Under the pieces are notes generated by a model. The model ran no database searches, was not told the DNA's origin, and saw only the letters and a list, made by a program, of their open reading frames with translations. DNA of 43,851 bases from IMG/VR virus record IMGVR_UViG_3300024259_000005, positions 1-43,851 of that record; one strand, written 5' to 3'. The stretch is from a virus. Positions within the stretch are counted from its first letter, which is position 1; each line of letters begins with the position of its first letter. Positions 1 through 43,851 of this stretch are shown here, piece by piece. The position numbers were made by a program, and so were the translations under genes.

Positions 1-127
1 CATAATTGTTAGGCATTATCCCATCCCTCCGGCAACGCAGCGCTGAAGATCATTGCGTCCGCATAAAACTCCATCGGCTGCGCGGCGTCCAAAACGGCAC
101 CGCTAGACTTGGCACCACGGGTCAGTC
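1..127. repeat. 127-bp terminal overlap with 43725-43851 (contig circularisation)
   Basis: Bases 1-127 are identical to 43725-43851. An exact 127-base end overlap is a common largest k-mer size in short-read assemblers, so it most likely marks a closed circular assembly graph of 43,724 unique bases. It need not be the packaged end of the virion DNA. It lies inside the minus-strand gene at 9-314, directly beside the hexanucleotide repeat. A true direct terminal repeat of this length is possible but less likely. Confidence 0.9.
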
Positions 128-314
128 TACCGAATCCCCCTGAATCCCATTTGCGGACATTGCGGACATTGCCTAGCCGCAAGCCTCCGCTCTTGCTATC
201 TGATAGTTCTCCGACAAATACCCACCCACGATGCAATACAACGATGCTGAGATCGCCAGTTGCCTCGTCGGACACGATGTCCTTGATCTTGCTCAATTTA
301 GATTCACAGTTCAT
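9..314 (-). CDS. Small conserved phage protein of unknown function
   Basis: This gene encodes 101 aa. GGAGAGAGCA precedes the ATG, which overlaps the end of the upstream gene by 11 bp. The sequence reads like a small beta-rich phage family I recall, with a HRGWVFVGEL start, an N-x-R-x-x-RKW centre and an Ala-rich end; such proteins often sit among early genes, and their role is unknown. The stop overlaps the start of the Gly-Tyr repeat gene by 8 bp (ATGCCTAA, read across the circle junction), so the two are probably translationally coupled. The family resemblance is from memory, not a search. Confidence 0.7.
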   Translation of the reverse strand: MNCESKLSKIKDIVSDEATGDLSIVVLHRGWVFVGELSDSKSGGLRLGNVRNVRKWDSGGFGRLTRGAKSSGAVLDAAQPMEFYADAMIFSAALPEGWDNA

Positions 315-27895: not shown

Positions 27896-30800
27896 ATGCC
27901 ACAGGGTTGGACTGACGAACATTACAGTGCGGCCAAGCAGAGACTCGGCTTGCCGGAGGAGTGGACCTCTGAGCATGTCGATCTATACCTGCAAAAGACT
28001 TCTGGCGTTCCGCAGACGCAGGGGCCACAAGCCACTCATAGTGGCGATGGCGACGATGTCGGCCCCGGCCTGGGGCGTGCGTTCCTCCATGGTATTCAGT
28101 ACGATACCCCTGAGGCGTTGATCTATCGTTACGGTAAGGGTATGGCCCTGGAGCCTGACGAGGATGACTACAACATTGCTGAGCAGGTGGCCCGTGGCTT
28201 AGGCAGCTTCGTGAGCCCAACTAGCATTCTTCTGTTCATTGCCGGTGGTGGGCTTGGCGGCGGTGTGGCCAAGAAGCTGGGTGTCGATGGTGTCAAACGC
28301 CTTGTGGTCAAGAAGGTTATAGAGCATGGCGCAAGACAGGCCGGTGCTGTGGGCCTGGAGCGTATGGGCCGTGACGCTATTGAGCAGAAGATAAAGACAG
28401 GTGAGATCGATGTTAATCAGGTGCTCACTGAGGGCCTTAAAGGTGCTGGGCTTGGCTTGGCAACTGGCCCTGCTGCGGCTCTTGGGCCTGCGGGCAGGAC
28501 GCTCCAGGCGGCAGCGAAAGGCTCAAGAAAAGGCGCGTCGACTGCCCTAACAGAGGCCTCGGCTGCTCTTGAGCCTAAGTTCTCATTGATGGCAAGACCC
28601 GGAGTGGGTGTGGCCTCGAGGCTTTCTGAGACTGCCGGCTCTCGAGTCGCCAATGCGGCCCGGCGCGGGCTACAAGGTGGCACTGAGGGTGCTATCTTCG
28701 GTGTAGGTGGCCCACTAATGGAGGGCCAGAGCCCTACGGGCGAAGACATTGGTACGGGTGTGGGCACCATGCTGGCGTTGACGGGCCTGGGTGCGCTCGG
28801 TGGGCGCATGAAGGGTACGCACGGTAAGGCTCTAAGCCTGCTGCGTGACCACACAGAGGGCAAGAAGGTGTTGCGCGAGCGGGTCAAGAGTGCTGAGCTT
28901 GATGCTTTGCTGGCCCGTGAACCTGCGGGCGAGGCTGCACAGGTACTGGACCCCCAGGCACGGCGTAGGCTACCTCCTAAGACTGAACTAGCAGACCGCG
29001 GCAACCCGGTTCCTCCCCCTCGTGGGTCCAGTCAGTGGCCCATGGACAGGTCGGTGCTCGAGAAGCCGGCGGAGTTCGCGGGTGAGTTGCAGAATATTGT
29101 GACGGAGTTCCAGGTATGGGGTGAGCGTACTGGCAGGCTGCGTCCTGATCAGGTGCGGTTCCTCGATAAGGTGGCCAATGATGCGGCGGGGATGAAGTGG
29201 CTGTCTGAGAGCGATGCCAGCACTGTGAAGTCTCAGCTTGTGGATGTGTTTGGTATCCAGCGGTGGAGGCAGTTCTTGTTGGATAACAGGCTGCGTCCCG
29301 ATGAGCTTCAGAAGGGTGCCGGCCACCTCGAGGGTGAGCTCCCCCTGCCTGACAAGATCCTGCCGAACAGGTATGACCAGCGGTTGGAGCTTACCAAGGG
29401 TGAGACACGGGCAGACAATGACCTGATCCTTGATTCGTTCTATGAGGGTCTCCCTGTAATCGATAAGCCTATAAGGCCCGCGAAGAAATCCATAGGCCAC
29501 CGCAGAGGCGAGTGGCTGGGCGAAGCTACGCCCGTCAACCCCGAGCATGGGCAGGTTGTGCGCGGGGCTGATGGTGCATTGTTGGGATACCATGGTGGCA
29601 GTGCTGATCTAAACCTCAAAGACGGTAAGCCGTTCCACCTTGGCACTGAGCAAGCTGCTATTGACAGAATCACACGGCCTGAGGTAGCGGGTGGTGGCAG
29701 CACTATCCAAGAAATTGGCATTAGGCCGAAGAAGCCCTATAGGGTCCTTGACGAGCGTGACGGAGGCGAGAGAACAGAGCTTTTCCTTCTACAGAATGAT
29801 CCCAAGGCACGCAAGGCCTTGACAGACCAAGGCTATGATGTGGTTCCATACATCAACGCGATTGAAGGGCCTGGGTCGCTGTCTTATCTGGTGCTTGACC
29901 CGAAGATTGTTGAGTTCACAGGACAGAGCGTATCTGGTCGAGTTGCCCCCTCAGGCAAGTGGCAGCCCATCTCCACTGGCGGGTTCGAGCCGGGAACACC
30001 CAAGCGCACGCGCACTGCTGAGCAAATGAACGAGTTGATGGATCGAGCGGCCCGGCGTGGAGAATCAGATGCGTGGCGCAAATGGGCCGACAAGCACCGT
30101 ACCGACCCTGACCTCATCGATGAAGCCATCAGGCTCATGGATGAGAGCTTTGAGGGTACGATTGGTAACACTACCCGTGGTGCGCTGAGCGTGGTGGAGC
30201 GGCTCAGTAGTATGACCACTAAGACCGGTGAGAAAGATACGGGCTTGCTGGCCCGCCAGGGTGGTAAGATCCGTGCCAAGGCCGAGAAGGCTTATGTCCG
30301 GTTCATGGACGACATCCACGCTCTTCGCAGGTTTGAGGAGGCTGTTCAAAAAGAAACAGGTTATGCCCTGCCGGCAGAGATGAGGCCCTACCTGATGGGC
30401 AGACTGGCCAGATCCTACACGGGCCGTGCGGCTGAGCGCATTCGCCTCAACCTAGACCCCATCCTCAAGGGTATGGATGACGGGATGCGGGAGGAGTTCA
30501 AGTCACTGCTCCGCGCGGAGCGGTTCCTTGATCGTTGGGGGGAGTTCAAGAACAATGAGAGCCTCAGGAGCAAGGGGCTTACCCATGGTGTGCTATTGCG
30601 CCACCGTGAGACTCTTGGGCCCAAGTACGCTACGCAGCTTGAAGCCTACAAGAAGATGATGACGGACATGCTCTATGACTCGGTGGGCAAAGAGCGTGCC
30701 GATGTGATCCTTGAGAAGAACGGGTTCTACACACCGCTGTTCGCTGAGATGGAAGCGGCGATGTATGGCAAGAACACGGGTGATCCCAAGGCATACAGTA

Positions 30801-32611
30801 GCCCCGACATCATCAAGCCTATCGAGGGCAAGGGCGATCTGTACATGGACCCGCTCGAGGCTACGATCAAGAACATCTATATGTCTGAGCGTTACCGTGC
30901 CCACCGCCATACTGTTGAGGCCGTGATCGAACTTGATCGCCTGGCCGGCGGTACGGGTATGATCAAGCCGACCAAGGCCGCGCCGAGTCAGCACAACCGT
31001 GTGCTCGAGCATTGGGAAGGCCTGGAGAAGAAGTATTACGAGGTGGACCCGGACATCTATGAGGCGTTCATCAACCTGGATCGTGCCCAGATGAGTATCC
31101 TTTCCAAGGTCCTGGGTGCTCCTGCTCGAACGCTGCGTATTGGTGCTACGAGCACGCTGTCCTTTGGCATACGCAATGCGCTGCGTGACTGGTGGGTGAA
31201 TTCTATCCAGTCTACTTATGGCTTCACGCCTTTCGACCTGATCAAGGGCGTGACTAGCGTGATGCGTAAGGACAAGTGGTACACTGAGTTCATGGAGTCT
31301 GGTGGCGCTATGAGTTCGGCGGTCGCTATGGACCATGCAGGGCTACACAAGGCCGTGAACAAGAGCATCGCCAACACGGGCAAGGGTGGTGCCGGCAAGG
31401 CGCTGTACTACCTGAAACACCCCATTGAGTTTGGCCGCATGTTCACGGAGTTCAGTGAGGCTTTCAACAGGGTGGGCACCTACCGTAAGGCGAGGAAGTA
31501 CACAGGGCGCTATGAGGCGGCCCTGGAGGCCCGTGAGGTGACGCTAGACTTCTCGAGGGCTGGCACCTGGGGCAAGCATATAAACAGTGTGGTGGCCTTC
31601 TGGAACGCTCAGGTGCAGGGTGCTGACAAGATGCGCCGTGTGGCCCAGGAGCGTCCCGAGTCTTTCATGGCCAGGACGGCACCCATTGCTATTAGTTCGA
31701 TGGCGCTGGTGCTGTGGAACCGGCAAGACCCTCGGTGGAAGGACATCCCTGACTACGAGAAGCGGGCCAACTGGATCTTTATGATGCCCGGTGTGGATAA
31801 GATCTGGAAGATGACCAAGCCGTTCGACTACGGCATGCTGTACGGCAGCGTTCCTGAACTGTTTGTTGAGTCTACGCTGGACAGGAACCCTGACGCGGCA
31901 AGCGACCTGTGGGATATGATCTCGTCTGTGACCCCATCCCTTAACCCGATGGACCTCACTATCGTGACCCCGATCGCTGAGATTTTAGCGAACAAGTCCT
32001 TCTTCAAGGACAGGCCTATCGTCCCTCGTAGCCAGGAAGATCTGTGGCCTCACCTGCAATTCGGACGGTATACCGGACGGACTAGCAAGGAGTTCACCAA
32101 GGGCATGGCTCGTATATGGGGCGAAGAGCATGGCTACAGCCCTCGGTACATGGAGCACTTGTGGAAGGGCTACACGGGTGGCCTGGGCAAGCTGGCCATG
32201 CAGGCAATTGACGTTGCCTGGGACATGGCAAGCCCCCCGGACATCCAGCTAGGGGCCAAGGTATGGCACAAGGACCTGCCGGTGATGCGGGACTTTGATG
32301 TGCGCCATCCCTCACAGGGCGGGCAGTTCGTGAGTGACTTCTACGACCTTGGCTATGAGGCCAGATCGGCACTGGCCAGTGCGGAAGAGTCGGGCCAGAG
32401 GCCTGAACGGTGGGCGCGTAGGGTGGATGCTATCTACTCAGCTACCCGTAACCGCATGAACAAGTTCCAGAAGAAGATACAGCGCATCGATGAGAACAAC
32501 CTCATGGGTGGCAAGGCCAAGAACGAGGCCTACGATGAAGTCTACGAGAAGATAAACCGCACGGCTGAGCGGGCATACTTGAGAATGCTCGAAGCCCGCT
32601 GGGAGGAATAG
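27896..32611 (+). CDS. Giant internal virion protein with ADP-ribosyltransferase-like domain
   Basis: This gene encodes 1571 aa, the largest product. Residues about 107-125 are a hydrophobic Gly-rich segment. Residues about 560-680 look like an ADP-ribosyltransferase fold of the polyvalent-protein class: LGYHGGS, a PFHLGTEQAAIDRI helix, IRPKKPYRVLD, then GYDVVPYIN and a YLVLDPKIVEF end. The C-terminal third carries LPP-type helical regions, including PARTLRIGATSTLSFGIRNALRDWW near 1075. No transglycosylase motif was seen, unlike T7 gp16. It is probably injected with the DNA, and the transferase-like domain may modify a host protein on entry. Confidence 0.7.
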   Translation: MPQGWTDEHYSAAKQRLGLPEEWTSEHVDLYLQKTSGVPQTQGPQATHSGDGDDVGPGLGRAFLHGIQYDTPEALIYRYGKGMALEPDEDDYNIAEQVARGLGSFVSPTSILLFIAGGGLGGGVAKKLGVDGVKRLVVKKVIEHGARQAGAVGLERMGRDAIEQKIKTGEIDVNQVLTEGLKGAGLGLATGPAAALGPAGRTLQAAAKGSRKGASTALTEASAALEPKFSLMARPGVGVASRLSETAGSRVANAARRGLQGGTEGAIFGVGGPLMEGQSPTGEDIGTGVGTMLALTGLGALGGRMKGTHGKALSLLRDHTEGKKVLRERVKSAELDALLAREPAGEAAQVLDPQARRRLPPKTELADRGNPVPPPRGSSQWPMDRSVLEKPAEFAGELQNIVTEFQVWGERTGRLRPDQVRFLDKVANDAAGMKWLSESDASTVKSQLVDVFGIQRWRQFLLDNRLRPDELQKGAGHLEGELPLPDKILPNRYDQRLELTKGETRADNDLILDSFYEGLPVIDKPIRPAKKSIGHRRGEWLGEATPVNPEHGQVVRGADGALLGYHGGSADLNLKDGKPFHLGTEQAAIDRITRPEVAGGGSTIQEIGIRPKKPYRVLDERDGGERTELFLLQNDPKARKALTDQGYDVVPYINAIEGPGSLSYLVLDPKIVEFTGQSVSGRVAPSGKWQPISTGGFEPGTPKRTRTAEQMNELMDRAARRGESDAWRKWADKHRTDPDLIDEAIRLMDESFEGTIGNTTRGALSVVERLSSMTTKTGEKDTGLLARQGGKIRAKAEKAYVRFMDDIHALRRFEEAVQKETGYALPAEMRPYLMGRLARSYTGRAAERIRLNLDPILKGMDDGMREEFKSLLRAERFLDRWGEFKNNESLRSKGLTHGVLLRHRETLGPKYATQLEAYKKMMTDMLYDSVGKERADVILEKNGFYTPLFAEMEAAMYGKNTGDPKAYSSPDIIKPIEGKGDLYMDPLEATIKNIYMSERYRAHRHTVEAVIELDRLAGGTGMIKPTKAAPSQHNRVLEHWEGLEKKYYEVDPDIYEAFINLDRAQMSILSKVLGAPARTLRIGATSTLSFGIRNALRDWWVNSIQSTYGFTPFDLIKGVTSVMRKDKWYTEFMESGGAMSSAVAMDHAGLHKAVNKSIANTGKGGAGKALYYLKHPIEFGRMFTEFSEAFNRVGTYRKARKYTGRYEAALEAREVTLDFSRAGTWGKHINSVVAFWNAQVQGADKMRRVAQERPESFMARTAPIAISSMALVLWNRQDPRWKDIPDYEKRANWIFMMPGVDKIWKMTKPFDYGMLYGSVPELFVESTLDRNPDAASDLWDMISSVTPSLNPMDLTIVTPIAEILANKSFFKDRPIVPRSQEDLWPHLQFGRYTGRTSKEFTKGMARIWGEEHGYSPRYMEHLWKGYTGGLGKLAMQAIDVAWDMASPPDIQLGAKVWHKDLPVMRDFDVRHPSQGGQFVSDFYDLGYEARSALASAEESGQRPERWARRVDAIYSATRNRMNKFQKKIQRIDENNLMGGKAKNEAYDEVYEKINRTAERAYLRMLEARWEE

Positions 32612-34668: not shown

Positions 34669-36237
34669 ATGGCTAGCGTATTTACCCCGGTATTTAATGC
34701 CGACACAGGCAGGCATGACCCAGGCCCCGCAGACATTGTGTATGTAGATATAGATGCGGCTGGAGCGGCGGATGGCACTAGTTGGACTGATGCCTTTACC
34801 ACTATGCAGGCTGCCGTAAATGCTGCGGGCGACGGTGAAAGGATAGCGGTTGCTGCGGGCACTTATGATGATGTTGACATCCTCAACTTCGACTTCTTTG
34901 GCGGGGCTGACGACGGGTCGTTTGAGATCGTGGCCCATGAGCCCGGTGTCATCTTCCGCACGGGAAGTAACCGAATCATTTACGCCGGCAAGGAGAACAG
35001 GGTCGGCATCCATGGTGTTACTTTCGACTGTGAGAGCCAGGCCCTCACCTATGCTGTAGAGTTCAAGGGGGGATCTTTGACCCTGGCTGGTTGTAAGTTC
35101 AAGGACGCGGCCACGACCGCGCCATGCCTGTACATGCGTGAGGCTGATGGTAATTCAGCTTACGACTTCCGGGCCTATGGCTGTGACTTTGCAGGGGCTT
35201 CTGTCAGAGTGAAGGACGCGGATGAGGTTAAGATCGACGGGTGTACCTTCACTGACCCGTGCAAGCTGAATGTTGTAGACTGCACCACCGTGTCCCTGAC
35301 AGGCAGCTCATGGGGGGATTCTGAAACACCCTTTGATGTTGGCACCTCGGGGGCTGCCGGTGCCTCAGACCTGTGCTGGGTCAGCGACTGTGTGAATGTG
35401 ACCATCGACAACTGCCATGCTGTTGCTGAGGATGCTGACACGGTCTTTTGGATTGACCCGGCCACGGTAAACCTAGTGTCTCCGACAATTAAGAATTGTT
35501 CAGTGCTGTGGGTTGGGGAGATTGCTGACGCTCTTTCGATTGGCATCACCAACGGCGCGGAGGATGCTAGTACACTTTCCACCGATGCGCTGATCGAAAA
35601 CTGCCGTGTGGATGTCCCGAACGAGTCTGGCGATAGCTCCCACCATGGTGTCTTTATCTGTGGAGCGATTGGGGCCACCATAAGGAACAACGTGAGCACT
35701 GGCGGCGGGTATAACGGCAGTGTCAAGCTAACGTCTGATCCGCTGGTGTACGGTAACACCTTCAGCGAGCCTGCCAGGCAGTGCTTTGTTGACAAAGCAT
35801 GTACAAGGGCCAGGGTGTACAACAACACAATGTTCGCCACGGGCACGGGGAATGCTGCCATGCGCGTGGTTGAGGGAGATGCGGACGAGGATGTGGTGGA
35901 CTCCTACTGGTACAATAACACAGTGTACGTTGAGGACAGCGCGGTAGCGGTCCAGGTTGATGCGGGAGACCTCATTGACCAGGACTACATCATCACGAAC
36001 CCAGCCCCCATGACACCGCTGTTCGACACCTACAAGTCTGGTCACTACAAAGACAAGACGGTGCTGAACATCTGGTTCTACAACAATACCTACTATGTAG
36101 CCGGCGCGGCCAGCAACTTAGCCTTCACGGTAGAAGGTGTGTCCTGCTCACTAGCGGAGGTTCAGGCCCACCCTGACACTGCCAAGGGCTACTTCTGGGA
36201 GGCTGATGGCGACACTAGCGTTACCGTGGTGACCTAG
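34669..36237 (+). CDS. Parallel beta-helix protein at the end of the late arm
   Basis: This gene encodes 522 aa with GGAGGCCATC before the ATG. The front (VYVDIDAAGAADGTSWTDAFTTMQAAVNAAGDGERIAVAAGTY) is a standard opening of parallel-beta-helix polysaccharide-acting or adhesin proteins. It is followed by many PbH1-type rungs (IENCRV, IRNNVSTGGG, VYNNTMFATG). It lacks the spike anchor. It may be a soluble or fibre-bound depolymerase, or an adhesin. The gene ends in the CTAG shared with the DnaB stop. Confidence 0.7.
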   Translation: MASVFTPVFNADTGRHDPGPADIVYVDIDAAGAADGTSWTDAFTTMQAAVNAAGDGERIAVAAGTYDDVDILNFDFFGGADDGSFEIVAHEPGVIFRTGSNRIIYAGKENRVGIHGVTFDCESQALTYAVEFKGGSLTLAGCKFKDAATTAPCLYMREADGNSAYDFRAYGCDFAGASVRVKDADEVKIDGCTFTDPCKLNVVDCTTVSLTGSSWGDSETPFDVGTSGAAGASDLCWVSDCVNVTIDNCHAVAEDADTVFWIDPATVNLVSPTIKNCSVLWVGEIADALSIGITNGAEDASTLSTDALIENCRVDVPNESGDSSHHGVFICGAIGATIRNNVSTGGGYNGSVKLTSDPLVYGNTFSEPARQCFVDKACTRARVYNNTMFATGTGNAAMRVVEGDADEDVVDSYWYNNTVYVEDSAVAVQVDAGDLIDQDYIITNPAPMTPLFDTYKSGHYKDKTVLNIWFYNNTYYVAGAASNLAFTVEGVSCSLAEVQAHPDTAKGYFWEADGDTSVTVVT

Positions 36238-37550
36238 AATGATGGTGGGTCAACGAACTTGGTGTACTGGTGCATGAACCTGAGGTCGATAGTATCTAGC
36301 GCACCATTACGATGCTTGGCTATGATCAGTTCGGCCATACCTTCACGGTCCTGAGCGCCCATCATCTCGGGCCTGTGCATGAACATGACTATATCTGCGT
36401 CCTGCTCTAAGCTGCCTGAGTCTCTCAGGTGGTGGAGGGCAGGACGCGCTGTTGTATCGGTGGATGCGGCGGCCCTGGATAGCTGGCTGAGTGCCAGGAT
36501 GGGGCACTTGAGTTCCTTGGCCAGCCCTTTGAGAGCGGCACTGATCACACCCACCTCGATGTTCCTGTTCTGGTGACCTGACGGCATACGCATTAGCTGG
36601 ATGTAGTCCACGATAACGAGGTCCAGTGGCTTGTCAATAGTAAGACCGTGACACCGTGAGCGCAGTTCCCCATGGCTGAGGCCCCCTGTCTCGTCAATGA
36701 AGAGATCGGCTCCGGCCAGGGACGATGTGGCCTCGCCAAGAAGTTCCCAATCGGTGGTATTCAGGAGCCCCGACCTCAGCTTGGAGCTATCAACCAGGGC
36801 CTCGGAAGACAAGATACGGTGGGTGACTTCATCTCTACTCATCTCCAGGCTGAAGAAAGCTATTCGCGCATCTGAGTTTAGGCACGCATTGCTTGCTATA
36901 TTCAGAGCCAGTGCGGTCTTGCCCATGGATGGGCGGGCCGCTAGCAGGATCAGGTTGCCGGGCTGGAACCCACCCGTTATATGGTCCAGCAATCCGTACC
37001 CTGTCTGCAGTCCGGTGAAGGATGTGCCGGCCTCCATCCTCTTCTGGATGACATCGAAGCTGGCGGTGATGGTCCGACCCAGTATCTCAGGCTTGCTGGT
37101 AGCCTCTCCCGTCCTCCCTACGGCCATAATAGCCTCTTCGGCATCCCCCAGTACCTTGGATATCTTTTCGGGCCCTGAGCAGGCGGTGAGGATGCCCTCG
37201 CATGCCTTCCTGAGGCGCCTGCGCTGAGCGGCATTGACCACAATGTCAGCATATTCTGACGCATTCTTGGTGAGCACCGGTCTGTCGTACAGGCTGCCAA
37301 TGCGTGAGGCACCGCCGGCCTTGACCAGTAGGCCTGCTAGCTGCAGCTCATTGGTGAGCGTGACCACATCCACGGGTGTACCCCGCCGGACCATGTCCTC
37401 AATGGCACCCCAGATAATGACGTGCTCATGGACAAACAGATCCCTACGAGACAGTTGCCGGGTGAGGTCAGCCGCCTGGGCAGCATCACTCATGGCTGAG
37501 TAGATCACCGCCTCTTCGGCTTCCTGGCTGTAGTGGGTGTTGTCAGTCAC
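36234..37550 (-). CDS. dnaB: Replicative DnaB-type helicase
   Basis: This gene encodes 438 aa from GTG at 37550, with GGAGG 7 nt upstream (an upstream in-frame TTG is less likely). An N-terminal helical domain (about 1-110) precedes the RecA-like motor. Walker A is ARPSMGKTALA (about 207-214), Walker B is LDLVIVDYIQL (311-320) and the H3/H4 region is SQLSRAAASTD with LRDSGSLEQDADIVMF. It unwinds the fork as a hexamer, probably loaded by a protein of this operon or the host. Length is typical for DnaB (about 440-470 aa). It ends the leftward arm and meets the late arm at CTAG. Confidence 0.92.
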   Translation of the reverse strand: MTDNTHYSQEAEEAVIYSAMSDAAQAADLTRQLSRRDLFVHEHVIIWGAIEDMVRRGTPVDVVTLTNELQLAGLLVKAGGASRIGSLYDRPVLTKNASEYADIVVNAAQRRRLRKACEGILTACSGPEKISKVLGDAEEAIMAVGRTGEATSKPEILGRTITASFDVIQKRMEAGTSFTGLQTGYGLLDHITGGFQPGNLILLAARPSMGKTALALNIASNACLNSDARIAFFSLEMSRDEVTHRILSSEALVDSSKLRSGLLNTTDWELLGEATSSLAGADLFIDETGGLSHGELRSRCHGLTIDKPLDLVIVDYIQLMRMPSGHQNRNIEVGVISAALKGLAKELKCPILALSQLSRAAASTDTTARPALHHLRDSGSLEQDADIVMFMHRPEMMGAQDREGMAELIIAKHRNGALDTIDLRFMHQYTKFVDPPSF

Positions 37551-37773
37551 TGCCAAACCTCCCCAGCACAGACTCTGCCATTACACGCAGTGCCTCCAGG
37601 AGTGCCGGGTCGCTTATGGATGTGACAAGATCTGTAATGGTCACACTTTCAAGCTCTATTTTAGTTTCGGCCCCAGCAATGTCTACCCGCGCATATAACG
37701 TGCAGACCGACCTCTGGCTTAGGGGGTCGGCAAGCCCTGGTATCACCTTATATGCTAAAGGGTCCATACTCAT
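37543..37773 (-). CDS. Hypothetical protein upstream of helicase
   Basis: This gene encodes 76 aa from ATG at 37773, with GGAGGTAAAGGT upstream and an ATGA overlap with the previous stop. The sequence has a beta-like DPLAYKVIPGL and SVCTLYARVDIAGAETKIELESVTITDLV region and a C-terminal helix (PALLEALRVMAESVL). It overlaps the helicase by 8 bp. It could be a helicase partner, but no motif shows this. Confidence 0.6.
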   Translation of the reverse strand: MSMDPLAYKVIPGLADPLSQRSVCTLYARVDIAGAETKIELESVTITDLVTSISDPALLEALRVMAESVLGRFGSD

Positions 37774-40240: not shown

Positions 40241-40776
40241 AGGCACATCATCCTCGCTCTCCTCTCTACCTCATGGCGTGGTACTCGGGTAGGCGGCCAT
40301 GTCTTGCCCAGATTGCCGGACATCGTCACGGTCTTAGACTCCCTGGCGTTAACGGCCCGCTGTTTCCCGACTGCACCATACAACCCGTGCTCTCTGGCAT
40401 AGATGGTATCTACCATGTCCGTGATGGGCTTGATCCTCTCCTCGCAAAACCCTAGCCCACTGCAGATCATGTACAGCCCCCCACCCTGCCATATGAGTTC
40501 CACCACACGTTCAATAACTGTGGCCGGCAGAGGTATCCCAGGGTTACAGCATGCCTCGGCTTCCTCATCATTCCAGTGGCGCATATTGCAAATAGGGCAC
40601 GGGGACGGGCGGTACTCCACCCCCACCCCGAACACCTTACCGGCATCCTCAAGAGGGCCCCGAGGCAGTGGTGTTGGGCGCACCTCCACCTTGACCTTGC
40701 CTAGCTGCAGCATCCTAGTCATCTCCCACAGGTCCGCATCAAGGAGTTGCTCGTCCAGTTCATCGTGTTCATGCAT
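40237..40776 (-). CDS. Cys-rich hypothetical protein in recombination operon
   Basis: This gene encodes 179 aa from ATG at 40776, overlapping the Rad52-like stop by 8 bp (ATGCATGA). The centre has CPICNMRHWNDEEAEACC (a metal-binding Cys/His group), followed by a GGGLYMICSGLGFCEERIKPI segment and a basic C-terminus (TRVPRHEVERRARMMCL). I do not recognise it. The position between the annealing protein and the resolvase suggests a role in DNA recombination, which is an inference. Confidence 0.6.
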   Translation of the reverse strand: MHEHDELDEQLLDADLWEMTRMLQLGKVKVEVRPTPLPRGPLEDAGKVFGVGVEYRPSPCPICNMRHWNDEEAEACCNPGIPLPATVIERVVELIWQGGGLYMICSGLGFCEERIKPITDMVDTIYAREHGLYGAVGKQRAVNARESKTVTMSGNLGKTWPPTRVPRHEVERRARMMCL

Positions 40777-41155
40777 CGGTCTTTCTACACCGAGCAGCAT
40801 CCTGGCTATTGATCCCAAGCTGCATTGCTGCACGCGCCAAAGATTTGTCGAACGCTTCCTCGATACCATACGCATATTTCTCACCTGTCATCGCGGCCCC
40901 ATCCCTTTTGGTGACCTTGTGCAGGCCGTGCTTGCCCCAGTCGGGCCCCTCGGGAAGGAACACATAGCACTCAAGCTCACAGATAATGGACTGGCCTGGG
41001 CCGTCCTTCTCATCGAGCCAAGCGCTATACTTGCTACTCCACCCATCCGCGCCGAACACCTCATCGAGCCGCCGAACCACACACTTAATATCTCCGCACT
41101 CGAGTGGTGCGCGTAGCGTGCGCTCGAGGTCTCCTACTGTCTTGTACTTCTTCAC
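40769..41155 (-). CDS. Rad52-like single-strand annealing protein
   Basis: This gene encodes 128 aa from GTG at 41155, with GGAGG 5 nt upstream. It has the Rad52/Rad22-type pattern: LERTLRAPL, IKCVVRRLDEVFGADGWSSKY, a beta stretch IICELECYVFL and an EKYAYGIEEAFDKSLARAAMQLGI helix. Annealing proteins of this class pair complementary single strands and form rings. It would work with the Cas4-like nuclease two genes upstream. Length is short for Rad52 (usually about 160-200 aa in phage). It overlaps the small zinc-ribbon gene by 71 bp. Confidence 0.7.
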   Translation of the reverse strand: MKKYKTVGDLERTLRAPLECGDIKCVVRRLDEVFGADGWSSKYSAWLDEKDGPGQSIICELECYVFLPEGPDWGKHGLHKVTKRDGAAMTGEKYAYGIEEAFDKSLARAAMQLGINSQDAARCRKTDA

Positions 41156-41291
41156 TGATCCTCCTAGTGTTAACCGTCCCACATGTCGTGCAGACTACCT
41201 TTATGATAGGCCCCGTCTGCCCCAGTCTGCCTAGTGGCACCGTCATTGCGCTGCACTTATCGCATGTGCCCCAGGTCTTGACTCGTCCCAT
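41085..41291 (-). CDS. Small zinc-ribbon protein
   Basis: This gene encodes 68 aa. Two CxxC knuckles (CDKC and CTTC, 20 residues between them) form a zinc ribbon. The C-terminal 25 residues are very basic (RRPRAHATRTTRVRRY) and are encoded over the start of the Rad52-like gene. The basic tail may bind nucleic acid, or it may be a by-product of the overlap if translation ends differently. It is followed closely by the annealing gene. Confidence 0.5.
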   Translation of the reverse strand: MGRVKTWGTCDKCSAMTVPLGRLGQTGPIIKVVCTTCGTVNTRRISEEVQDSRRPRAHATRTTRVRRY

Positions 41292-41294
41292 GAG

Positions 41295-41975
41295 TTAGTC
41301 CTTCCCGCTGCACTGATGTCTAAACCCGCAGCTTTTACATTCCCAACTCTGTGGTGTGCACGGTACCGCATTCACATCACCCGTGTCAAGGGCTTTGTTG
41401 ATCACGCCGGCACGCCTCTCATTCTCCGCGCGGTACGGCTCGAGGAACTGCCGGTGGGCAATGATCGTTGAGGTCTTGCCCCACCCCCGCTCCAGGTAGA
41501 CGAACTTGGTGCCCGGAGCGCCACTGCCGAAGACGTAGTCAGCCGTCTGGTGCAGGTGGTAGTCCGGCGGCCCCGTAGCCCTGACGTACTTGAGGCTCCC
41601 CGTTGTTTTCACCTCGAGGATGAACCCCTCGCACCCATCATCAGGGTCTTCAATGATCAGGCCATCGGGGTGGCCCTCAGTCCCCCAATCAGTGGTGACA
41701 ACGTTCTGCCCCTCGCCTGTGAAGGCTAGCTTGTAGCCAGAGGCCTCGAGCATCTTGACGATCAACCCCTCAAGGGCGTTGCCGGCACCCATCTTGTACA
41801 CGGACTCGAGGTCAGGGCCCTCGGGATCCATGACCCCATCATACCCCCTGGCCCACGCCACGTTGTACCAGGCCTTGCGCATGCACAGGCCTATGCCACT
41901 CGAGCCAAGGTAGTCACGCTTCTCTAAAAAGTGTGACCCGTCAAAGCCCTTCAGAAAATTTATGTCTTTTTTCAT
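41295..41975 (-). CDS. Cas4/RecB-like PD-(D/E)XK nuclease with Fe-S site
   Basis: This gene encodes 226 aa. The nuclease core is GHPDG (101-105, Asp104), ILEVKTT (119-125, Glu121 and Lys123) and YHLHQTADY (Gln143). One Cys at position 31 (LCMRKAWY) and three near the C-terminus (Cys213, Cys216 and Cys222, CKSCGFRHQC) are arranged like the [4Fe-4S] ligands of Cas4 and AddB. It should be a 5'-3' exonuclease giving single strands for the annealing protein. There is no CRISPR array in the window, so a recombination role is preferred over spacer acquisition. Confidence 0.8.
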   Translation of the reverse strand: MKKDINFLKGFDGSHFLEKRDYLGSSGIGLCMRKAWYNVAWARGYDGVMDPEGPDLESVYKMGAGNALEGLIVKMLEASGYKLAFTGEGQNVVTTDWGTEGHPDGLIIEDPDDGCEGFILEVKTTGSLKYVRATGPPDYHLHQTADYVFGSGAPGTKFVYLERGWGKTSTIIAHRQFLEPYRAENERRAGVINKALDTGDVNAVPCTPQSWECKSCGFRHQCSGKD

Positions 41976-43509: not shown

Positions 43510-43740
43510 TTAATCGTTCCTGGCAAGTGTCGGTTCACCAGAGCCATAGCCATCGCTATAGCCAGAGCCAAAGCCAAAGCCATAGCCAGAGCCAGAGCCA
43601 GAGCCATCGCTATAGCCATAGCCATAGCCAGAGCCAGAGCCAAAGCCAGAGCCATAGCCAAAGCCATCGCCAGAGCCATAGCCATAGCCATAGCCAAAGC
43701 CATAGCCATAGCCATCGCCAGAGCCATAATTGTTAGGCAT
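43510..43740 (-). CDS. Gly-Tyr/Ser/Phe/Asp repeat protein (low complexity)
   Basis: This gene encodes 76 aa. GGAGG lies 9 nt before the ATG, and the start overlaps the upstream gene by 8 bp (ATGCCTAA, equal to positions 9-16), so expression is well supported. After MPNN, about 60 residues alternate Gly with Tyr, Ser, Phe or Asp (for example YGYGFGYGYGYG and SGSGSGYGFGFGSG), then SGEPTLARND closes it. Gly-aromatic and Ser repeats of this kind are typical of proteins that self-associate or phase-separate, and of adhesive or silk-like proteins. I know of no phage family with this sequence. Its function is unknown. Confidence 0.65.
   Translation of the reverse strand: MPNNYGSGDGYGYGFGYGYGYGSGDGFGYGSGFGSGSGYGYGYSDGSGSGSGYGFGFGSGYSDGYGSGEPTLARND
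43538..43727. repeat. Hexanucleotide tandem repeat (GCCANA units)
   Basis: About 190 bases are built from six-base units, mainly AGCCAT, AGCCAG and AGCCAA, with some CGCCAG and CGCTAT. It runs in the coding frame of the Gly-Tyr repeat protein, so gain or loss of units changes length without a frameshift. The contig junction lies at its edge, so copy number may be collapsed or wrong in the assembly. Confidence 0.9.
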
Positions 43741-43851
43741 TATCCCATCCCTCCGGCAACGCAGCGCTGAAGATCATTGCGTCCGCATAAAACTCCATCG
43801 GCTGCGCGGCGTCCAAAACGGCACCGCTAGACTTGGCACCACGGGTCAGTC
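43725..43851. repeat. 127-bp terminal overlap, right copy
   Basis: This is identical to positions 1-127. It holds the 5' end of the Gly-Tyr repeat gene and the 3' end of the gene at 9-314. Removing one copy gives a closed circle of 43,724 bases. Confidence 0.9.

Follow-up and report, generated by a model that had tools for sequence, protein, structure and literature searches.

A hypervariable glycine-alternating repeat gene paired with a DUF6948 gene of predicted Sm/LSm-like fold in phages

The stretch of viral DNA analysed here, referred to as the window, comprises the 43,851 nucleotides of IMG/VR record IMGVR_UViG_3300024259_000005. Close to its right-hand end, at 43510–43740 on the minus strand, lies a gene of 76 amino acids reading MPNNYGSGDGYGYGFGYG...GEPTLARND, in which glycine alternates with Tyr, Ser, Phe or Asp (hereafter Gly-X), as established from the open reading frame (ORF) and its translation, a coding-frame test on relatives and homologues in cultured phages. 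The repetitive part is encoded by a 6-bp tandem array (43538–43728, minus strand) of about 31 units of the form GGC-[TAT/TCT/TTT/GAT], evident from both TRF and the codon table. TRF scored these positions as 31.8 copies of 6 bp with an 83% match (score 235), the strongest repeat of the whole window by a wide margin. Position X is filled by 12 Tyr (TAT), 10 Ser (TCT), 5 Phe (TTT) and 4 Asp (GAT), and the Gly codon is GGC throughout save for two AGC (Ser) units and a final GGT. An earlier sequence-only reading of this DNA had described the alternation, with most variation in the middle base of the X codon and Gly kept. The roughly 31 dipeptides counted in the ORF bear this out, as do the codon table and the entropies of the six unit positions (0.34, 0, 0.20, 0.63, 1.43 and 0.20 bits), which place the variation mostly in the middle base of the X codon and to a lesser extent in its first base. 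The same reading had pointed to a ribosome site and a short overlap with the upstream gene, and both are found: GGAGGG (43749–43754, minus strand), a strong site, lies 8 nt 5' of the ATG, and the Gly-X start (ATGCCTAA) shares 8 nt with the stop end of the upstream gene. The window protein has no match among PHROGs. Further reading frames across the array are likewise open, so an open frame is by itself no proof of coding and comparative evidence is needed.

The record is a circular genome that has been cut within the Gly-X region. Its first 127 bp (1–127) are an exact terminal repeat of 43725–43851, and two contigs from other samples (L193 and L194), 100% identical to the window, run across the junction and give a circle of 43,724 bp, whose closure probably reflects an assembly k-mer of 127. 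Both contigs hold the array internally, and the array is therefore not an end artefact; an assembly artefact was likewise rejected, given the agreement of three assemblies and the presence of the module in cultured isolates. Because of the cut, the partner gene upstream of Gly-X is found at the opposite end of the window, where it is intact at 9–314 (minus strand), with its 3' part duplicated at 43733–43851. The window is a tailed-phage genome with terminase, major head protein and head-tail adaptor genes. Within it, the Gly-X gene occupies an upstream position in a leftward block (minus strand) that contains a Cas4-domain exonuclease (41295–41975, by PHROG), a Rad52/Erf-type annealing protein (40769–41182, by Pfam and PHROG), a RuvC-like protein and a DnaB-like helicase (36234–37556, by PHROG). 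Judged by its genes, this block is probably transcribed early, and the earlier suggestion of an early phage gene is matched as to context, that of a low-complexity gene in an early-type replication and recombination operon. The first 40,000 bases of the window, searched as two halves against 50,697 phage records, returned no near DNA relative. Elsewhere in the window, 27896–32611 (plus strand) encodes a 1571-aa giant polyvalent protein with an LPD38 domain, and 34669–36237 (plus strand), immediately ahead of the convergent gene block with DnaB, encodes a 522-aa protein without a PHROG match, whose composition suggests a beta-helix.

The partner gene belongs to a family that recurs beside such arrays. 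In IMG/VR, runs of eight Gly-[K H Y] units were found in at least 120 stretches, and a stricter Tyr/Ser/Asp pattern, applied to 84,980 prokaryote genomes, matched 71 stretches belonging to records of many phyla; Gly-Val, Gly-Ala and Gly-Asp-only array families also returned by the pattern search are unrelated and were filtered out. Clustering of the neighbouring ORFs placed a single family in 108 of 130 array loci, with the Pfam identity DUF6948 (PF22253), a domain of unknown function. This family is present in 103 of the 105 array loci that extend at least 300 bp upstream, and in 100 of these 105 it ends no more than 400 bp before the array. The window partner, of 101 aa, falls in the same cluster and lies directly before the Gly-X ORF, as the gene order in L194 confirms. 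An HMM built from 102 relatives, with the window protein left out, matched it at E=2e-8, but Pfam's own DUF6948 model gave no match at E 0.01; on the strength of these two profiles it is classed as a divergent DUF6948 member. Sampling was also carried out in reverse, with a DNA motif for DUF6948 alone, which favours canonical DUF6948 and gave at least 109 new loci. A Gly-X array lies downstream in 70 of the 78 loci with at least 500 bp on that side and a degenerate Gly-X ORF, judged by eye, in 5 of the remaining 8, so that about 75 of 78 DUF6948 genes (~96%) are followed by a Gly-X ORF. As a sample drawn on DUF6948 alone also yields Gly-X ORFs downstream, the pairing is nearly obligate there. 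The two genes form a very widespread unit across phages of very different hosts, with related genes in the sequenced cultured phages phiPLPE, Ymer and Amona. They are separate ORFs save in one of the 252 array ORFs examined (L040), a natural fusion in which DUF6948 (HMM E=1e-26) and Gly-X share one ORF. Neither DUF6948 nor its pairing with Gly-X is described in the literature searched, and a word search of the Ymer-genus paper found no mention of the array. The link of DUF6948 with Gly-X arrays, together with its Sm-like fold as predicted below, comes from the present analysis.

AlphaFold2 models were obtained for the window DUF6948 (pLDDT 85.7) and for a canonical member (pLDDT 91.8) and were compared with the PDB. 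For either model, each of the best 50 rows is an Sm, LSm or SmAP protein, or else a chain that matches as an Sm protein within an snRNP or spliceosome entry. The best Z scores are 9.0 and 9.2 for the two models, and for the canonical protein the score is still 8.0 at rank 50, against the 4–5 described by the tool as typical there. DUF6948 is thus predicted, from models that display the Sm barrel, to have an Sm/LSm-like fold. Matches in BFVD are phage proteins named DUF6948, plus one named Sm-like from Synechococcus phage S-CAM3. A further predicted fold match (Z 8.4) is the Sm-like protein 3by7, presumably of cyanophage origin; it and the S-CAM3 protein share 11–16% identity with DUF6948 in structural alignments, and we know of no Gly-X partner for either. 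In sequence searches, DUF6948 had no match to solved structures in the PDB, Sm proteins included, and the partner family matched DUF6948 only in Pfam, with no Sm/LSm/Hfq family model. DUF6948 is only weakly positive in charge. Its conserved ARRxWYW segment and a short helix, which the models place as an insertion within the barrel, could serve another role than Sm-type RNA handling. Sm-like folds can bind protein rather than RNA, as Rof does on Rho (PMC11018626).

The array search patterns favour certain codons, and statements on composition therefore rest on the unbiased sample, the loci picked by the DUF6948 motif. Across 86 such loci, the Gly-X frame opens with ATG in 93% and has both start and ribosome site in 70%, against 22% and 5%, and 7% and 2%, for the other two frames. 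An overlap of its start with the DUF6948 stop, usually of 13 or 17 nt, is present in 69 of 80. The X residues of 2891 units are mostly Ser (33%), Tyr (24%) and Asp (22%), followed by Asn (6%) and Phe (4%), with Ala seen 37 times against the 236 expected under independent variation of the first and second bases, a 6-fold depletion. Gly replacements (64/2891, two positions) are rarer per site than third-base synonymous changes (216/2827, one position), counts that describe a pattern rather than a formal dN/dS, since units within arrays share ancestry. Between phages it is mainly synonymous choices that vary (Gly as GGC, GGT, GGG or GGA; X third base as C or T), whereas within one array nearly only the X residues do. 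Frame, start codon and synonymous-site patterns together support the view that the Gly-X ORF codes for protein, and the window ORF is confirmed as a real gene. The sequence-only reading had argued for a real product, and had held that the lack of a start, ribosome site or intact frame in related phages would speak against it; all three are retained there. The chains have a median net charge of −8 and a median of 11 aromatics, with aromatic residues in 95 of 96 arrays and acidic residues likewise in 95 of 96. In the unbiased set acidic residues become more frequent toward the C-terminus (p=0.005), a rise that does not reach significance among the pattern-selected arrays (p=0.12); the trend is weak, given that eight such tests were run. 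The relatives' Gly-X proteins gave nothing meaningful against NCBIfam, and their weak matches to Pfam TrAA12 and to PHROGs were rejected as low-complexity artefacts.

These patterns bear on two explanations in which the encoded chain would have no role of its own. In phiPLPE, a GC-rich repeat, (KMGCCG)35, was suggested as a possible attachment site rather than a gene (PMC3391216, Table 3 and text); it is the same type of array and lies directly after the phiPLPE DUF6948 gene (L195). A DNA-level element of this kind, whether attachment site or recombination hot spot, draws on that published speculation and on the highly repetitive, fast-changing DNA, which in the window belongs to an operon with recombination genes. 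An attachment site should be conserved as DNA without coding constraint, yet coding constraint was found: the Gly codon and the X third base change between phages while the amino acids are kept, the start, ribosome site, frame and ORF ends are conserved, and arrays are fused to protein domains, which leaves this the least probable explanation of all. Very improbable too is a neutral microsatellite, a slippage product without function in a dispensable ORF. It would account for the freedom of array length and order and for long perfect hexamer tracts, prone to slippage as these are, but not for a position behind nearly all sampled DUF6948 genes in loci of many phyla, a rate of Gly replacement per site below that of synonymous change, the depletion of Ala or the near-universal acidic residues.

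The array turns over much faster than the flanking DNA. Eight related Pectobacterium/Dickeya phages have the N-terminus MSKLIKPE[KR]YG, followed by arrays with between 22 and 40 units; all except one end in GEG. Two cultured Pectobacterium phages, Ymer and Amona, match at every base along the 1921 bp that precede the array and the 1268 bp that follow it, whereas the arrays themselves are 12 unit edits apart, and in L066 (1719–2929) the Gly-X gene stands in five tandem copies with identical flanks and five different arrays. Repeated blocks longer than in shuffles (p<0.05) occur in 41 of 107 arrays, and units therefore multiply in blocks; the window array has none such. A diversity-generating retroelement, acting by template-directed A-to-N mutagenesis, was considered and rejected: Asp needs a T-to-G change, and Ala, a double change, is depleted. 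Diversity could itself be selected if the chain were a hypervariable binder or decoy that engages or evades a changing host factor. The differing arrays between identical flanks, the five L066 copies among them, would fit such a role, as would non-synonymous variation far above synonymous inside arrays. However, slippage or recombination shuffling a few unit types would produce the same pattern without selection for diversity, in keeping with the duplicated blocks, and we regard the binder or decoy as improbable. Fast turnover, the pairing with DUF6948 and the predicted fold of the partner had all been overlooked in the sequence-only reading, whose account of coding, composition and context stood.

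Arrays also occur within longer proteins. In L020, L073, L075, L117, L180 and about 17 other loci the ORF continues past the array into an unnamed domain bearing the motifs HG[ED]T...EA and WHHxLTGSCxxGRxxF, which has no meaningful Pfam, NCBIfam or PHROG match. Another domain is fused to the Gly-X array in L035 (3798–4452), L072 (1–739) and L152; in L035 and L072 it shows a GTLHAT...W motif, has no Pfam match and is taken by us to resemble DUF7666. A short cysteine-containing domain of 'AGAC' type is fused ahead of the array or behind it in L018, L034, L054 and L106. Separately, L113 (576–1785) encodes two paralogous proteins of ~190–210 aa in which the motif CAHYCARYC recurs and GYGYGFG forms a short stretch; they are unrelated to the Gly-X family.

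A possible function is suggested by Hfq of Acinetobacter baumannii, which consists of an Sm core and a C-terminal tail of GGFGGQ repeats with an acidic tip, the number of repeats affecting RNA regulation (PMC11617691). The phage pair resembles it in combining an Sm-type core, predicted here, with a Gly- and aromatic-rich, repetitive, presumably disordered chain bearing acidic residues. It differs in that the phage chain is not on the same polypeptide as the core but is a separate, overlapping gene (fused once, in L040), in that the chain is strictly Gly-X alternating and hypervariable, and in that RNA binding is here a presumption. From the near-obligate pairing, the L040 fusion, the coding, composition and turnover patterns, the modelled fold and this analogy we tentatively propose, at a little under an even chance, that Gly-X is a disordered tail given in trans to a phage Sm-like protein, much as the glycine-rich tail serves Acinetobacter Hfq.

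Under this proposal, the Gly-X ORF would yield an acidic, presumably intrinsically disordered Gly-[Tyr/Ser/Phe/Asp] tail protein, encoded second in a conserved phage module of two cistrons, the first being that of Sm/LSm-like DUF6948. The overlap of the cistrons would probably couple their translation, and both products would presumably be made early in infection. DUF6948 would most likely form a ring and bind RNA, and the Gly-X chain would work with it in trans, presumably through physical contact, as the Hfq C-terminal tail does in cis, adjusting either how RNA is bound and released or the local concentration, with phage or host transcripts as the targets. Selection would act on composition and on the alternation of Gly and not on unit order, which would leave the hexamer array free to be reshuffled, perhaps, at a guess, by the annealing recombinase encoded nearby. 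Gly-X may also be a general linker, since a subset of loci encode it as a fusion with other, unknown domains.

Low-complexity domains of the FUS type, rich in Tyr, Gly and Ser, have a sticker-spacer composition. Gly-X shares this and is, by composition alone, compatible with the condensate class, but it has no homology to these domains, comes from a bacterial virus and has a two-residue period fixed by the 6-bp DNA repeat. The chain could then be a self-assembling scaffold, its Tyr/Phe stickers and Ser/Asp/Gly spacers phase-separating alone to organise replication or sequester host proteins, with DUF6948 just a co-regulated neighbour or client. This was the idea of the sequence-only reading, which had suggested a self-assembling protein that might organise a replication compartment or block a host complex. 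Retention of sticker and spacer composition under scrambled order, an operon shared with replication genes and the median of 11 aromatics per chain are in line with such a scaffold; the near-obligate pairing and the L040 fusion indicate instead a role linked to DUF6948, and the aromatic share falls as low as 14% in some arrays. We consider the free-standing scaffold unlikely.

The gene and the broad biological pattern are real, and the function of Gly-X as a tail acting in trans is plausible. A wider claim, possible but on the doubtful side, is that of a phage-wide mode of RNA handling, in which an Sm-fold protein would act with a continuously reshuffled, order-independent disordered partner in trans, possibly forming ribonucleoprotein condensates. 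If true, the pair would be a split, hypervariable Hfq-like machine, and to our knowledge none like it has been described. It would offer a testable function for DUF6948, a family found in many phages whose hosts differ widely, and a function for a repeat earlier set aside as a DNA site. The gene also provides a natural experiment on disordered proteins: among phages that are identical around it, the order of the units is scrambled but their composition and the alternation with Gly stay the same, allowing one to ask directly what a disordered tail requires.
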